Positions 10,527 through 33,192 of a stretch of 64,000 nt of DNA are shown here, piece by piece. The DNA is from a bacterium (GTDB lineage Bacteria > Bacillota > Bacilli > Lactobacillales > Streptococcaceae). The notes under the pieces were generated by a model. The model did no database searches and was not told the DNA's origin. It was given only the letters and a program-made list of their open reading frames with translations. Within the stretch, counting starts at the first letter, position 1. Every line of letters begins with the position of its first letter. The stretch is from positions 186,001-250,000 of the forward strand of contig CAJNDF010000002.1 in NCBI GenBank assembly GCA_905221455.1, given 5' to 3'. A program made the translations under genes and the position numbers.

Positions 10527-10534
10527 TACGAATA
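10527..10534 (+). promoter_or_regulatory. cin-box (ComX late-competence promoter) of comEA-comEC
   Basis: A perfect TACGAATA, the -10-like element read by the alternative sigma factor ComX in streptococci, with T-rich sequence upstream. It is 20 bp before comEA ATG, giving a leader of roughly 15 nt that contains the ribosome site. Confidence 0.93.
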
Positions 10535-25861: not shown

Positions 25862-28216
25862 ATGAAAGATAGAATAAAAGAATATTTACAAGAAAAGGGA
25901 AAGGTGACTGTCAATGACTTGGCTCAAGATTTGGGAAAAGACGGGTCCAAGGATTTTCGTGAGTTGATTAAAACCTTGTCCTTAATGGAAAGAAAGCACC
26001 AGATACGCTTTGAAGAAGATGGTAGTCTGACTTTGGAAGTCAAGAAAAAACATGAGATTACCCTAAAGGGGATTTTTCATGCCCATAAAAATGGCTTTGG
26101 TTTTGTCAGTCTGGAAGGAGAAGAGGACGACCTTTTTGTAGGAAAAAACGATGTCAACTATGCCATTGATGGTGATACCGTTGAGGTCGTGATCAAGAAA
26201 GTCGCTGACCGCAATAAGGGAACAGCAGCAGAAGCCAAAATTATTGATATCCTAGAGCACAGTTTGACAACCGTTGTCGGTCAAATCGTACTGGATCAGG
26301 AAAAACCTAAGTATGCCGGCTACATCCGTTCTAAAAACCAGAAAATCAGCCAACCAATTTATGTTAAGAAACCAGCCCTTAAACTAGAAGGGACGGAAGT
26401 TCTCAAGGTCTTTATCGACAAATACCCAAGCAAGAAACATGATTTCTTTGTGGCGAGTGTCCTCGATGTGGTGGGGCACTCGACGGATGTTGGGATTGAT
26501 GTCCTGGAGGTTTTGGAGTCTATGGACATTGTCTCAGAGTTTCCAGAGGCTGTTGTTAAGGAAGCAGAAAGTGTTCCTGATGCTCCGTCTCAAAAGGATA
26601 TGGAAGGCCGTCTGGATTTGAGAGATGAGATTACCTTTACCATTGACGGTGCGGATGCCAAGGACTTGGACGATGCGGTACATATCAAGGCTCTGAAAAA
26701 TGGAAATCTGGAGCTTGGAGTTCACATCGCAGACGTTTCCTACTATGTGACTGAGGGTTCTGCCCTTGACAAGGAAGCCCTTAACCGCGCGACTTCTGTT
26801 TATGTGACAGACCGTGTGGTCCCAATGCTTCCAGAACGACTGTCAAATGGCATCTGCTCCCTTAATCCTCAAGTTGACCGCCTGACCCAGTCAGCCATTA
26901 TGGAGATTGATAAACATGGTCGTGTAGTCAACTACACCATCACACAAACGGTTATCAAGACTAGCTTCAGGATGACCTACAGTGATGTCAATGATATCCT
27001 AGCTGGAGACAAGGAAAAGAGACAAGAATATCAGAAAATTGTTCCAAGTATTGAACTTATGGCTAAGCTCCATGAAATTTTAGAAAACATGCGTGTGAAA
27101 CGTGGAGCCCTCAATTTCGATACCAATGAAGCCAAGATTTTAGTGGATAAACAAGGTAAGCCTGTTGATATCGTTCTTCGGCAGCGTGGTGTTGCCGAGC
27201 GCATGATTGAGTCCTTTATGTTGATGGCCAATGAAACAGTTGCCGAGCATTTTAGCAAGTTGAACCTACCTTTCATCTATCGAATTCACGAGGAGCCTAA
27301 GGCTGAAAAAGTTCAGAAGTTTATTGATTATGCTTCGAGCTTTGGCTTGCGCATTTATGGGACTGCCAGTGAGATTAGCCAGGAGGCCCTCCAAGACATC
27401 ATGCGTACTGTTGAGGGAGAACCTTATGCGGATGTATTGTCCATGATGCTTCTCCGTTCCATGCAGCAGGCTCGCTATTCGGAGCACAATCACGGTCACT
27501 ATGGTCTAGCGGCTGATTATTACACTCACTTTACTAGCCCGATTCGCCGTTATCCGGACCTCCTTGTTCACCGTATGATTCGGGACTACGGCCGTTCTAA
27601 GGAAATAGCCGAGCATTTTGAGCAAGTGATTCCAGAGATTGCAACCCAGTCTTCCAATCGTGAGCGTCGTGCCATCGAGGCGGAGCGTGAAGTTGAAGCT
27701 ATGAAAAAGGCTGAGTACATGGAAGAATACGTGGGTGAAGAGTATGATGCAGTTGTATCAAGTATCGTTAAATTCGGTCTCTTTGTTGAATTGCCAAACA
27801 CGGTTGAGGGTTTGATTCACATCACTAATTTACCTGAATTTTATCATTTTAATGAGCGTGATTTGACTCTGCGTGGGGAAAAATCGGGTACAACCTTCCG
27901 TGTAGGTCAGCAAATCCGTATCCGAGTTGAAAGAGCTGACAAGATGACGGGGGAAATTGATTTCTCTTACATTCCAAGTGAATTTGATGTGATTGAAAAA
28001 GGCTTGAAACAGTCTAGTCGTAGTGACAGAGGGCGTGGTTCAAGTCGTCGTTCAGATAAGAAGGAAGATAAGAGAAAATCAGGACGCTCAAATGATAAGC
28101 GCAAGCATTCACAAAAAGACAAGAAGAAAAAAGGTAAGAAACCTTTTTACAAGGAAGTAGCTAAGAAAGGAGCCAAGCATGGCAAAGGGCGAGGGAAAGG
28201 TCGTCGCACAAAATAA
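25862..28216 (+). CDS. rnr: Ribonuclease R
   Basis: Processive 3'-to-5' exoribonuclease that degrades structured RNA and, with tmRNA-SmpB, defective mRNAs. The 784 residues contain an N-terminal helix-turn-helix, cold-shock domains (~70-215), the RNB catalytic core (~250-590) with [13 protein letters not shown], an S1 domain (~630-710), and a very basic Lys/Arg/Ser tail of about 70 residues. That tail overlaps the smpB start by 38 bp, so the two partners in trans-translation decay are translationally coupled. Confidence 0.96.
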
Positions 28217-28646
28217 AAAGGCGCGCCACGACTATACAATCGTAGATACGCTAGAGGCAGGAATGGTCCTGACTGGGACTGAAATCAAGAGTGTGCGAGC
28301 TGCTCGAATTAATCTCAAGGATGGCTTTGCCCAAGTGAAAAATGGGGAGGTTTGGTTGAGTAATGTCCATATCGCCCCTTACGAAGAGGGCAATATCTGG
28401 AACCAAGAACCAGAACGCCGTCGCAAACTCCTGCTCCATAAGAAGCAAATTCAAAAATTGGAACAAGAGACCAAAGGGACAGGAATGACGCTGGTTCCCC
28501 TTAAGGTCTATATCAAAGATGGCTATGCCAAGCTCCTTTTAGGCCTAGCTAAAGGGAAGCATGACTACGACAAACGGGAGTCTATCAAACGTCGTGAACA
28601 AAACCGCGATATTGCGCGCGTCATGAAAGCTGTCAACCAGCGATAA
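28179..28646 (+). CDS. smpB: SsrA-binding protein SmpB
   Basis: Binds tmRNA and delivers it to stalled ribosomes. The 155 residues show [25 protein letters not shown] opening, the [10 protein letters not shown] core and a C-terminal basic tail ending in VMKAVNQR, which enters the empty mRNA channel. The start ATG 28179 with AAGGAG lies inside the 3' end of rnr. Confidence 0.97.
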
Positions 28647-28660
28647 AAAGAGGAATGAAA

Positions 28661-29518
28661 ATGGAAAAACTAGTTGCCTATAAACGCATGCCACTGTGGA
28701 CTAAAGAGACCATGCCAGAGGCGGTTCAGCAAAAGCACAATACCAAGGTCGGAACTTGGGGCAAGATTACTGTTGTAAAAGGAGTTCTCAAGTTTATTGA
28801 GTTGACCGAAGAAGGAGAAGTTCTAGCTGAACACCTCTTTGAAGCAGGGGTAGATAATCCAATGGCGCAACCACAAGCCTGGCACCGAGTGGAGGCTGCC
28901 ACAGACGATGTGGAATGGTACTTGGAATTTTATTGTAAACCTGAGGACTATTTCCCTAAGAAATACAATACCAATCCTGTTCATTCAGAGGTTCTAGAGG
29001 CTATGCAAACAGTGAAACCGGGTAAAGCCTTGGATTTGGGTTGTGGTCAGGGTCGTAATTCCCTCTTTTTAGCCCAGCAAGGTTTTGATGTGACGGCTGT
29101 GGATCAAAATGAACTGGCTCTTGAAATCTTGCAAAGCATTGTGGAGCAGGAAGATTTGGATATGCCTGTTGGTCTTTACGATATCAATTCAGCCAGCATT
29201 GGGCAAGCCTATGATTTTATCGTTTCAACAGTTGTTCTCATGTTTCTACAAGCGGACCGCATTCCAGCTATTATCCGAAACATGCAGGAGCACACCACGG
29301 TCGGTGGTTACAATCTTATCGTCTGTGCCATGGATACGGAGGATTATCCTTGCTCGGTTAACTTCCCATTCACTTTTAAAGAAGGGGAATTGGCAGACTA
29401 CTACAAGGACTGGGAATTGGTTAAGTACAATGAAAATCCAGGCCATTTGCACCGTCGCGATGAGAATGGCAATCGCATTCAACTACGTTTCGCGACCATG
29501 CTAGCTAAGAAAATCAAG
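28661..29518 (+). CDS. tehB: TehB-like SAM-dependent methyltransferase
   Basis: Two-domain protein: an N-terminal cupin-like DUF1971 domain (~1-95) and a class I methyltransferase (~100-285) with the SAM motif ALDLGCGQGRNS. The family is linked to tellurite resistance, though the natural substrate is uncertain. I choose ATG 28661 (AGAGG 7 nt upstream; 285-286 residues) over ATG 28655, which is too close to that site. A terminator carried in a 42-bp repeat follows the stop near 29521. Confidence 0.85.
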
Positions 29519-29532
29519 TAAACACACATGAA

Positions 29533-29565
29533 GATTAGGAATTTTCCTGATCTTTTTTCTTTTTT
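29533..29565 (+). terminator. Terminator after tehB
   Basis: GATTAGGAA (29533-29541) pairs with TTCCTGATC (29544-29552), one wobble, followed by a run of T broken by single C residues. Confidence 0.82.
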
Positions 29566-29572
29566 ACGAATA
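29565..29572 (+). promoter_or_regulatory. cin-box upstream of hicA (duplicate of coiA's)
   Basis: A perfect TACGAATA with the preceding T-tract, 68 bp before the hicA start. It is the left copy of the coiA competence promoter, so hicAB could be transcribed by ComX holoenzyme. Function is inferred from sequence identity only. Confidence 0.75.
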
Positions 29573-29587
29573 GATAAGATAGAAGAA

Positions 29588-29616
29588 TTGACAAAAATAC
29601 GCATTATAAGTATAAT
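29588..29616 (+). promoter_or_regulatory. Sigma-A promoter of hicAB
   Basis: A perfect TTGACA (29588-29593) and TATAAT (29611-29616) with a 17-bp spacer, 24 bp before hicA. This is the strongest consensus promoter I see in the window. Confidence 0.88.
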
Positions 29617-29639
29617 TTTAGCTAGAAAGGTGACCATAA

Positions 29640-29934
29640 ATGCCAATCACAGGTAAGGAAATGGTAAAATTATACTCAATGAAAATCAAAGAGCAAACTA
29701 GGAAGCTGGCCGCAGGCTGTACTTGAGTACGGCAAGGAGAAGCTGACGTGGTTTGAATTTGATTTTCGAAGAGTATTAGCTCTTGCAAATAGATGGATTG
29801 AAGTACGTAAGAGAGGAAGTCATCATCATTTTAAGAAAGAAGGAGTTCCCTATCTTGTCACTATTCCAGTTCACGGTAATGAGGATTTAGGAAAAGGTTT
29901 AGAGAGAAAAATAGTAAAAGATTTGGGACTGTAG
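29640..29934 (+). pseudogene. hicA: hicA toxin gene split by a BOX element
   Basis: HicA is a small double-stranded-RNA-binding-fold ribonuclease toxin. The first 11 codons (MPITGKEMVKL, from ATG 29640, AAAGGTGA upstream) are intact; the frame then runs into a BOX element and stops at 29724-29726. The rest resumes in another frame from 29776 to the stop at 29932: LALANRW...RKRGSHHHF...TIPVHGNEDLG, holding the catalytic His. Removing 106 bp between the two TTA trinucleotides (29670-29672 and 29776-29778) joins the parts into a 62-codon HicA, the normal size. The toxin should be inactive. Confidence 0.9.
29672..29776 (-). repeat. BOX element (boxA-boxC) inserted in hicA
   Basis: A 105-bp BOX copy in reverse orientation (boxC end first). 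It is nearly identical to those at 1800-1904 and 45443-45547. It shifts the hicA frame and introduces a stop. Confidence 0.95.
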
Positions 29935-29961
29935 TTGATTTGGAAATTGTGGAGGTGTATT

Positions 29962-30339
29962 ATGCTAAAATCTTATCCTGCTATTTTTCATAGAGAAGGC
30001 ACTGGATACTGGGTTGAATTTCCTGAATTTGGAGGTGGAACAGAAGGAGCAACGATTGAACTTGCAATGAAAAATGCTCGGGAAATGCTTGAGAGTGTTT
30101 TAGCTTCTTATATTGATGAAGGACAGGCTTTGCCTACTCCTAGTGACATTTCTATGTTGAAAGCTCCTGATGGCTTTGTGACTTTGATTCAGGTCAATCC
30201 CTTGCCTTTCGTAAAGAATAATAAGGCGATTCGAAAAAATGTTACGGTTCCAGAGTGGCTAGTCAGACTTGCAGATCGTGAGAAAGTGAACTATTCTGAA
30301 GTGTTGACACAAGCTCTTGAAAGTCGCTTGCAACTCTAA
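29962..30339 (+). CDS. hicB: HicB antitoxin
   Basis: Antitoxin partner of HicA. From ATG 29962 (GGAGGTG upstream) it is 125 residues: an N-terminal RNase H-like HicB fold (~1-75, with YPAIFHREGTGYWVEFPEF) and a C-terminal ribbon-helix-helix part (~88-125, VTVPEWLVRLADREKVNYSEVL) that would bind operator DNA and repress the operon. The reading frame is intact although its toxin is broken, as expected when the antitoxin carries no cost. The 9 in-frame codons upstream to 29935 lack a better start. Confidence 0.92.
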   Translation: MLKSYPAIFHREGTGYWVEFPEFGGGTEGATIELAMKNAREMLESVLASYIDEGQALPTPSDISMLKAPDGFVTLIQVNPLPFVKNNKAIRKNVTVPEWLVRLADREKVNYSEVLTQALESRLQL

Positions 30340-30356
30340 AATTATAGAATGATTAA

Positions 30357-30389
30357 GATTAGGAATTTTCCTGATCTTTTTTCTTTTTT
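30357..30389 (+). terminator. Terminator after hicB
   Basis: GATTAGGAA (30357-30365) pairs with TTCCTGATC (30368-30376), then a T-rich tail running into the cin-box. Confidence 0.82.
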
Positions 30390-30396
30390 ACGAATA
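30389..30396 (+). promoter_or_regulatory. cin-box of coiA
   Basis: A perfect TACGAATA 22 bp before the coiA ATG, with an upstream T-tract supplied by the terminator tail. coiA is an established late-competence gene in pneumococcus. Confidence 0.93.
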
Positions 30397-30417
30397 ATAT
30401 AGAAAAGGAGGAAAATT

Positions 30418-31371
30418 ATGTTTGTTGCGAGAGATGCTAGGGGAGAGTTGGTAAATGTGCTAGAGGATAAGCTTGAGAAGCAAAACTACACCTGCCCAGC
30501 TTGTGGAGGTCAGCTCCGTTTGCGGCAAGGACCAAGTGTCCGAACCCATTTTGCCCACAAATCCCTAAAAGACTGTGATTTTTCATTTGAAAATGAAAGT
30601 CCAGAACACTTGGTAAATAAGGAATTCCTCTACCACTGGTTGAAAAAAGAGACAGAGGTACAATTAGAACACCCGCTTTCAGAACTTAAACAGATTGCGG
30701 ATGTATTTGTAAATGGCAATCTGGCTTTAGAAGTTCAGTGTAGTCCCTTGCCTCAAAAAGTTCTTAAAGAGCGCAGTGAGGGCTATCGTAGTCAGGGTTA
30801 CCAAGTACTGTGGTTGCTGGGAGAAAAACTATGGCTCAACGACCGTTTAACCCGTCTGCAACAAGGTTTTCTCTATTTCAGTCAAAATATGGGCTTTTAT
30901 GTTTGGGAATTAGACAAAGAAAAACAGATTTTAAGGCTCAAATACCTGATTTACCAAGACCTCCGAGGTAAACTCCATTATCAAATCAAGGAATTTCCCT
31001 ATGGTCAAGGCAGTCTACTGGAGATATTACGTCTTCCCTATAAGAAACAAAAAATCTCTCATTTTACAGTTTCTCAGGACAAGGACATCTGTCGCTATAT
31101 CCGGGAACAACTGTTTTATCAAAATCCCTTTTGGATGAAAGAACAAGCAGAAGCCTATCAAAAGGGAGAAAATCTCCTAACTTATGGGCTAAAAGAATGG
31201 TATCCACAAATTCGACCAATAGTAGGTAATTTTTGCCAAATTGAGAAAGATTTGACTCGCTATTATCAGTATTTTCAAACATATTATCAAGAAAATCCTC
31301 AAAATGATTGGCAAAAGCTTTATCCACCAGCCTTTTATCAGCAATATTTCTTGAAAAATATGGTAGAATAG
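30418..31371 (+). CDS. coiA: Competence protein CoiA
   Basis: Late-competence protein required for transformation, thought to aid recombination of incoming DNA. The 317 residues have an N-terminal zinc-like segment (YTCPACGGQLRLRQG, ~22-36), the H-F-A-H of THFAHKS, and a restriction-nuclease-like core (~80-140) with ADVFVNGNLALEVQ, which fits a PD-(D/E)xK pattern. AAAAGGAGG precedes ATG 30418. pepF follows 18 bp later and may be partly co-expressed during competence. Confidence 0.94.
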   Translation: MFVARDARGELVNVLEDKLEKQNYTCPACGGQLRLRQGPSVRTHFAHKSLKDCDFSFENESPEHLVNKEFLYHWLKKETEVQLEHPLSELKQIADVFVNGNLALEVQCSPLPQKVLKERSEGYRSQGYQVLWLLGEKLWLNDRLTRLQQGFLYFSQNMGFYVWELDKEKQILRLKYLIYQDLRGKLHYQIKEFPYGQGSLLEILRLPYKKQKISHFTVSQDKDICRYIREQLFYQNPFWMKEQAEAYQKGENLLTYGLKEWYPQIRPIVGNFCQIEKDLTRYYQYFQTYYQENPQNDWQKLYPPAFYQQYFLKNMVE

Positions 31372-31389
31372 AAAGGATGGAGGAATCTA

Positions 31390-33192
31390 ATGGTATTACA
31401 AAGACATGAAATAAATGAAAAAGATACATGGGATCTATCAACGATTTACCCAACTGACCAGGCTTGGGAAGAAACCTTAAAAGATTTAACAGAACAATTG
31501 GAGACAGTGGCCCAGTATGAAGGCCATCTCTTGGATAGTGCGGATAGCCTACTCGAAATTACTGAATTTTCTCTTGACATGGAACGCCAGATGGAGAAGC
31601 TTTACGTTTATGCTCATATGAAAAATGACCAGGACACTCGTGAAGCCAAGTATCAAGAGTACTATGCCAAGGCAATGACTCTCTACAGCCAGCTGGACCA
31701 AGCCTTTTCATTCTATGAGCCTGAATTTATGGATATTAGCGAAAAGCAGTATGCTGACTTTTTAGAAGCTCAACCAAAATTGCAGGTTTATCAACACTAT
31801 TTTGACAAGCTTTTGCAAGGTAAGGATCACGTTCTTTCACAACGTGAAGAAGAATTATTGGCTGGAGCTGGAGAAATCTTTGGTTCGGCAAGTGAAACCT
31901 TCGCTATCTTGGACAATGCGGATATTGTTTTCCCTTATGTTCTTGATGAAGATGGTAACGAAGTACAATTATCACATGGCGTTTATATGCGTTTAATGGA
32001 ATCTAAAAATCGTGAGGTTCGTCGAGGTGCCTATCAAGCCCTCTATGCGACTTACGAACAATTCCAACATACCTATGCCAAAACCTTGCAAACCAATGTT
32101 AAGGTCCAAAACTACCGTGCCAAAGTTCGTAACTACAAGAGTGCTCGTCATGCAGCCCTAGCGGCCAATTTTGTTCCAGAGAGTGTTTATGACAATTTGG
32201 TAGCAGCAGTTCGCAAGCACTTGCCACTCTTGCATCGCTATCTTAACCTTCGTTCAAAAATCTTGGGAATTTCAGACCTCAAGATGTACGATGTCTACAC
32301 ACCACTATCTTCAGTAGAATACAGCTTTACCTACGAGGAAGCCTTGAAAAAGGCAGAAGAGGCCTTGGCAGTCTTGGGTGAGGATTACTTGAGCCGTGTT
32401 AAACGTGCCTTCAGTGAGCGTTGGATTGATGTTTATGAAAATCAAGGCAAGCGTTCAGGTGCCTATTCTGGTGGCTCTTACGATACCAATGCCTTTATGC
32501 TCCTTAACTGGCAGGACAATCTGGACAATCTTTTTACCCTTGTTCATGAAACAGGTCACAGTATGCATTCCAGTTATACTCGTGAAACTCAGCCTTATGT
32601 TTACGGAGATTATTCGATCTTCTTGGCTGAGATTGCTTCAACTACCAATGAAAATATCTTGACAGAGAAATTATTGGAAGAAGTGGAAGACGACGCAACG
32701 CGTTTTGCTATCCTCAATAACTTCCTAGATGGTTTCCGTGGAACAGTTTTCCGCCAAACTCAATTTGCTGAGTTTGAACACGCTATCCACCAAGCAGACC
32801 AAAATGGAGAAGTTTTGACTAGCGATTTCCTAAATAAACTCTACGCAGACTTGAACCAAGAGTATTATGGTTTGAGCAAGGAAGACAATCCTGAAATCCA
32901 ATACGAGTGGGCCCGCATTCCACACTTCTACTATAACTACTATGTATATCAATATTCAACTGGTTTTGCAGCAGCCTCAGCCTTGGCTGAAAAGATTGTT
33001 CATGGTAGTCAAGAAGACCGTGATCGTTATATCGACTACCTCAAGGCCGGTAAGTCTGATTATCCACTTAATGTCATGAGAAAAGCTGGTGTTGATATGG
33101 AGAAAGAAGACTACCTCAACGATGCCTTTGCAGTCTTTGAACGCCGTTTAAATGAGTTTGAAGCCCTTGTTGAAAAATTGGGATTGGCATAA
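31390..33192 (+). CDS. pepF: Oligoendopeptidase F
   Basis: Cytoplasmic M3-family zinc metallopeptidase that cleaves oligopeptides. The 600 residues contain the zinc motif [10 protein letters not shown] (HExxH near residue 387) and the third ligand region [11 protein letters not shown] 31390 follows GGAGG. It is directly downstream of coiA and 1 bp before the methyltransferase gene. Confidence 0.95.

Follow-up and report, generated by a model that had tools for sequence, protein, structure and literature searches.

A hicAB toxin-antitoxin locus behind a probable copy of the coiA competence promoter in Mitis-group streptococci

In some oral streptococci, the toxin-antitoxin pair hicAB lies beside coiA, a DNA-uptake gene. 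Our analysis of one such locus and of its counterparts in related genomes points to an insertion of hicAB at the coiA promoter. According to this explanation, to which we assign a probability of roughly three in four, the box for sigma-X (SigX) was duplicated, hicAB is transcribed from both a SigX and a sigma-A promoter, the module spread, and a BOX-type element later broke it in some strains. We regard SigX control of hicAB as likely from the sequence; standing behind a copy of the coiA promoter, the pair would probably be switched on during DNA uptake.

Organization of the tehB-coiA interval

The window is the whole stretch of DNA analysed, 64,000 nucleotides from a bacterium of the Streptococcaceae, and the features of this interval lie on its plus strand. 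The left neighbour of hicAB is tehB (28655..29521; PF03848, E 3.8e-95), and coiA follows on the right (30418..31371; PF06054, E 4.2e-26). Two direct repeats, at 29528-29572 and 30352-30396, bracket the pair; they are 45 nt long with 1 mismatch, include 42 identical bases, and have a spacing of 824, whereas exact direct repeats reached 15 at most (mean 10.7) when positions 29000-31000 were dinucleotide-shuffled 200 times. A sequence-only reading of this DNA had described identical 42-bp repeats, each carrying a terminator and then a late-competence box, and both parts of this description were borne out: in both copies, a stem-loop with a T-tail (fold z -4.9 and -2.7) is followed by TACGAATA. 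In the left copy, the tehB terminator covers 29530-29555 and the box 29565-29572; in the right copy, the terminator covers 30355-30378 and the box, at 30389-30396, belongs to the coiA promoter. The right terminator would also end the hicAB transcript.

The layout of a late-competence promoter is present at 29553-29572, where TACGAATA (TNCGAATA) forms the -10 box and a T-rich stretch lies 5' of it, which matches the published S. mitis coiA layout, and hicA starts 67 nt from this box. In S. mitis, SigX boxes have been described as a T-run followed at a distance of 0 by TACGAATA, with T[G/C/T]CGAATA among the listed boxes and box distances of 7-229 nt; the coiA box lies 21-22 nt from the ATG, and coiA was induced 58.6- and 139.6-fold (PMC6001120). 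The right copy in the window, with a T run, 0, TACGAATA and 21 nt to the ATG, has the published coiA spacing (PMC6001120).

The number of TACGAATA occurrences in the window is 4, slightly over chance (shuffle mean 0.95; at least 4 in 1 of 100 shuffles), and that of TNCGAATA is not above chance (8 vs. 5.9 expected). The case for SigX boxes rests on position and repetition. A terminator-like sequence running into TACGAATA is also found at 10527-10534 (box), in the same build as the two repeat copies, so this build is not special to the hicAB-coiA place; we take the gene after it, from its spacing, to be comEA. The spacing there (T6, 8 nt, TACGAATA, 19 nt, ATG) equals that published for S. mitis comEA (PMC6001120). 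The box at 1303, on the minus strand, has no terminator setting by eye, and an Rfam search of 28000-32000 gave 0 matches.

The consensus sigma-A promoter that the sequence-only reading had assigned to hicAB was found at 29588..29616 as TTGACA-17-TATAAT. Inspection by eye revealed a common TACGCAT-N-ATGCGTA-like palindrome between the -35 and -10 elements of related hicAB loci, which is degraded in the window to an imperfect ACGCAT/ATAAGT palindrome in the promoter spacer. We propose this palindrome as a candidate HicB operator.

Interruption of the toxin gene

The antitoxin gene hicB (29962..30339; PF15919, E 8.1e-11) is intact, encodes 125 aa and lies directly downstream of hicA, which is the antitoxin arrangement of HicAB type II. 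Among solved structures, the best match of HicB is 5yrz chain A (E 3e-12, with residues 1-70 covered best), a HicB of the same antitoxin family, which we take to be that of S. pneumoniae HicBA. The intact HicA of type II systems is absent from the window. The hicA frame beginning at 29640 reaches a premature stop after 28 codons (29640..29726) because of a 106-nt insertion (29673..29778), whose length is not a multiple of three. Downstream of the insertion, a 3' remnant of hicA (29779..29937) corresponds to positions 13-58 of the HicA_toxin profile (PF07927, E 8.7e-15 on 29779-29934), and only this C-terminal piece scores in the profile search. Upstream of the remnant, its frame contains no ATG, GTG or TTG back to the nearest stop (partly by eye). 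The split of hicA and the 28-codon frame rule out an intact toxin-antitoxin pair in the window, so that the sequence-only description of a hicAB module was incomplete: hicB is whole, and the toxin is judged to be non-functional because hicA is interrupted. Only HicB would be made, and the window probably carries a SigX-driven antitoxin with a dead toxin.

The region 29670-29779 folds at -42.1 kcal/mol (z -6.8), TTA stands on either side of the insertion, and its 23-mer core occurs at 3 places in the window, two of them besides hicA (chance 0.00). The insertion is thus a dispersed hairpin repeat, and from its build we take it to be a BOX element of the boxA-boxC type. The occupied sequences, in which hicAB stands before coiA, comprise 15 distinct ones: the window, those of 13 genomes, and L085. 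A BOX-type insertion at the same site was found in 5 of these 15 (the window, L004, L007, L008 and L009), and an intact 62-aa HicA frame in 10 (10/14 outside the window), G246 among them. A BOX-like element was also seen by eye at L039 (G001), in the opposite orientation, right after tehB and before the single terminator/box.

Occupied and empty sites upstream of coiA

CoiA was found in all 247 genus genomes searched, and the 35 genomes with CoiA identity of at least 88% were classed as mitis-type; the DNA upstream of coiA was inspected in all 35. In 10 of them, hicAB lies before coiA (in G246, its left half is on a second contig). In another 18, including G001, tehB lies directly before one terminator/box and coiA. 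A different gene precedes coiA in 5 genomes, where coiA has one box and the terminator is absent, and the sites of the other 2 (L032 and L052) are cut by contig ends and show one box each. The interval before coiA is variable among strains; at the five sites with a different gene (L044, L054, L057, L060 and L064), this upstream neighbour of coiA was recognized by eye as a repeat-rich gene with an LPNTG-type anchor end. The records named in the comparison are, according to the depositors' labels, S. mitis, S. pseudopneumoniae, several Streptococcus sp. and one S. pneumoniae (SMRU824).

The alignment of the tehB-coiA interval proposed in the sequence-only reading does reveal single-copy empty sites, 19 with tehB adjacent when the site of G026 (CoiA 75%) is included. 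Two repeat copies without hicAB, which that reading had named as contrary evidence, were not encountered: two terminator copies occur in 0 of the 26 hicAB-less sites scanned (these 19 and 7 others, 2 of which are cut by contig ends), and two terminator/box copies in none of the 25 mitis-type genomes without hicAB. The occupied controls L001, L003, L007 and L084 have two terminator copies each. A second, bare TACGAATA does exist at L057, a site without hicAB, where it lies 824 bp upstream within the coding sequence of the upstream gene. The flanks of hicAB run without a break into tehB on the left and into coiA on the right, just as they do at the empty sites, and because of this contiguity with tehB we take the left copy as the ancestral flank.

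HicB proteins with 94-98% identity were found in 13 of 284 genus genomes searched, and in 13/13 the gene lies immediately before coiA. The next HicB is 81% identical, with no coiA in its fetched flank, and viral contigs yielded only two HicB proteins, at 77%. The pattern of the box joined to GATRAKATAGAAG matched 12 of 247 genomes, which are exactly the hicAB-at-coiA genomes of that set, and the reversed control matched 0. Another SigX promoter was considered as the source of the left junction and rejected, because the junction pattern occurs only at hicAB-coiA in the 247 genomes.

A SigX core box precedes hicA in 15/15 occupied sequences, across three left flanks. It is TACGAATA in 13/13 tehB-side sequences (12 aligned and G246); with other left flanks, it is TGCGAATA in L011 and TACGAATA in L012. 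G279 (locus L156) matches L084 over the 850 bases compared. L011 (G150) and L012 (G239) belong to divergent coiA lineages, with CoiA 66% and 62-66% identical to that of the window and HicB synonymous differences from the window of 0.34 and 0.47. L012 does not have tehB as its left neighbour, and in L011 no left neighbour is seen before the contig ends. Upstream of both hicAB loci, the DNA matches dispersed elements, most matches ending about 20-35 bp before the box; the junction GATGATATAGAAGGATTGACA is kept in both, and their left T-tract resembles, by eye, the coiA promoter of their own lineage. Their left terminator palindrome is not the same as elsewhere, so one simple duplication fails to explain all cases. 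Dispersed repeats make up parts of the left flanks at L091 and L090; 106 and 109 of the 247 genomes, respectively, gave matches to these flanks, and for this reason no empty-site parent was found for the two. A Pfam search of the 849-aa neighbour in L091 gave 0 matches. In L012/L091 (G239), coiA is split into two frames (L091 3457-4414) downstream of an intact hicAB. At 32 loci of other coiA lineages (L068-L075, L077-L080 and L100-L119; coiA 63-72%), neither hicB nor a second box was found within 1000 bp, and 29 of the loci have TTCGAATA as their coiA box, the other 3 TTCGAATG.

Eighteen further hicAB upstream regions (L013-L030, 260 bp each) were compared. TACGAATA occurs on the hicA strand in 5 of them, which resemble one another; the exact box is absent from that strand in the other 13 and in L092-L097 and L099, some of which are the same sequences as in the L013-L030 set. 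At L019 (530-1878), a CRISPR-like repeat array and a gene that we take to be csn2-like flank another kind of hicAB, whose HicB is about 75% identical; TACGAATA comes right after the stop of the csn2-like gene, and between this box and hicA stands a terminator-like palindrome. By upstream similarity, L018, L021, L022 and L023 have a like arrangement.

Selective constraints and distribution among strains

The left box is invariant in the 12 aligned sequences, in which 1 of 15 columns of the adjoining spacer and 40 of 378 columns of hicB vary. Because the spacer is almost as invariant and hicB varies little, retention of the box on the tehB side argues only weakly for selection. Position 2 of the right box varies in 5/12 sequences, and the box of the empty sites deviates in 5/19, 4 of these at position 2; published S. 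mitis SigX boxes likewise vary at this position (PMC6001120). Perfect identity of the left and right copies is unique to the window (1 of the 12 occupied sequences compared). The identity of a left copy to the right copy of its own sequence is 0.948 and to those of other sequences 0.944, and this equality rules out concerted evolution of the two copies. For hicB, pN/pS was 0.21 in 5 BOX carriers vs. 0.17 in 8 other mitis-type sequences, and for the hicA remnant 0.12 vs. 0.19, with no decay; relaxed purifying selection on hicB or the hicA remnant was looked for in BOX carriers and not seen. The undecayed remnant suggests that the break is recent, has been reshuffled by recombination, or is not fully inactivating.

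A coiA tree was built from 35 rows (13 occupied, including the window, 16 empty and 6 other), with the partial-coiA rows L061, L064, L065 and L066 left out. Occupancy required 10 changes on this weakly supported tree (6 of 31 inner branches well supported), compared with a shuffled mean of 10.8, and a value as low was reached in 189 of 500 shuffles. On the tehB tree, occupancy also required 10 changes (no shuffles). Scattered occupancy on the coiA tree is expected for spread by recombination, and the alleles look shuffled among strains.

Origin of the hicAB locus

Insertion of hicAB next to coiA is well supported by these comparisons, with insertion as the probable direction. The sequence-only reading had already suggested an insertion with duplication of the coiA promoter; the duplication does accompany hicAB, but L011 and L012 need more than simple duplication. 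In the proposed course of events, hicAB would have entered the coiA promoter of a Mitis-group streptococcus with duplication of the 45-bp terminator and SigX box, so that tehB would keep its terminator, hicAB would gain a box, and coiA would keep its box and be insulated from hicAB. During competence, sigma-X would start at the left box (putative start near 29579) and yield one hicA-hicB transcript reaching to the right terminator; in non-competent cells, basal transcription would come from the sigma-A promoter, on which HicB probably acts as a repressor. The module would then have spread between strains by recombination in tehB/coiA, presumably through transformation, and a BOX-type element would have broken hicA in the window and in 4 of the 14 occupied sequences besides it.

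The opposite direction, in which the occupied state is older and recombination between the 45-bp repeats removed hicAB cleanly and left one terminator/box, is in our view unlikely. The repeats are long enough for such recombination, occupied sites are scattered over the coiA tree (10 changes), and the two copies differ in 11 of 12 sequences, which means that the duplication is not recent. However, empty sites account for 18 of the 35 mitis-type genomes, the more diverged L066 (coiA 75%) is empty too, and among other lineages only G150 and G239 were seen occupied, against the 32 coiA loci with neither hicB nor a second box within 1000 bp. The module stands at the same place beside coiA in two coiA lineages of 62-66% identity whose left flanks differ, as would also be expected of a self-mobile cassette inserting by site-specific recombination at terminator/SigX-box sequences. 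Yet nothing besides hicA, the insertion and hicB lies in the interval, which leaves no space for an integrase, neither the HicB subtype nor its box junction turned up at another SigX box, and the only two HicB proteins of viral contigs are at 77%; such a cassette is therefore highly improbable.

A more serious competitor, to which we give somewhat less than even odds, accepts the duplication and regards the left SigX box as its incidental by-product: competence may raise hicAB RNA without any selected role, and the sigma-A promoter sustains hicAB, as in other chromosomal HicAB pairs. The independent evolution of the left and right copies (0.948 vs. 0.944) agrees with this, as does the broken toxin in 5/15 sequences, which suggests weak or negative selection; moreover, deletion of accessory CSP-responsive genes left transformation in S. 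mitis unaffected (PMC6001120). What weighs against a by-product is that a box is kept in L011 and L012, where the upstream matches to dispersed elements mostly end about 20-35 bp before it, and that the HicB subtype was found only at coiA (13/13).

Implications and comparison with known systems

Should hicAB indeed be driven by SigX, one toxin-antitoxin family would have come under competence control twice, through unrelated regulators; this would argue for a function of the pairing and open it to tests in transformable laboratory streptococci. A broader suggestion, which we put forward tentatively and consider doubtful on balance, is that Gram-negative bacteria (through Sxy/CRP-S) and Gram-positive ones (through SigX) independently brought hicAB into the competence regulon, following one two-promoter logic, that intact HicA acts in competent cells, for example by slowing translation during DNA uptake or by guarding the coiA region against replacement, and that strains like that of the window escape the cost by breaking hicA and keeping HicB. 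The module in the window cannot act as a toxin, which calls for caution; empty, intact and toxin-broken alleles at one site in close relatives are nevertheless a good natural test set.

Searches of the open-licence literature yielded no report of hicAB at coiA or of SigX-driven hicAB and no expression data for an occupied strain, and a word search for anything starting with hic or toxin found nothing in the main text of a study on the CSP transcriptomes of two S. mitis strains (PMC6001120). Several streptococcal toxin-antitoxin systems are linked to quorum sensing or competence, namely S. mutans SmuATR and S. pneumoniae RipA/RipB and SpxA1-TenA; in the accounts consulted, none is described as hicAB at coiA with a SigX box, and RipA acts upstream by inducing comCDE. 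A BOX element is associated with a toxin-antitoxin operon in pneumococcal yefM-yoeB with boxAC, as here, but there it lies upstream and adds a promoter, whereas the BOX-type element here lies inside the toxin gene (PMC6162744).

In H. influenzae, the toxin-antitoxin operon toxTA is likewise under competence control and often keeps its antitoxin gene after loss of the toxin gene: among 181 strains, 17 had the full operon, 22 a complete deletion and 142 a partial toxin deletion (PMC6957337). It differs in its unrelated RelE/HigB-type toxin, in its Sxy/CRP regulation, and in being altered by deletions instead of element insertion. The closest parallel is E. coli hicAB, in which P1 is activated by Sxy/CRP-S and P2 is repressed by HicB (PMC6957337, PMC11594946). 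In both loci, the toxin comes first, and a promoter for a competence regulator, putative here, lies upstream of one tied, here again putatively, to the antitoxin; the sequences of two promoters, a SigX box and a sigma-A promoter, are present before hicA here. The differences are that the upstream element here is a SigX box copied from coiA, that E. coli P2 yields only HicB whereas the downstream promoter here precedes hicA with a leader including its ribosome site (by eye), and that in the window the toxin is broken and HicB repression is putative. Thus, the link between a toxin-antitoxin module and natural transformation, which the sequence-only reading had thought new, is already published for E. 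coli hicAB and H. influenzae toxTA, and the new part would be the SigX version of the hicAB-competence link in streptococci.
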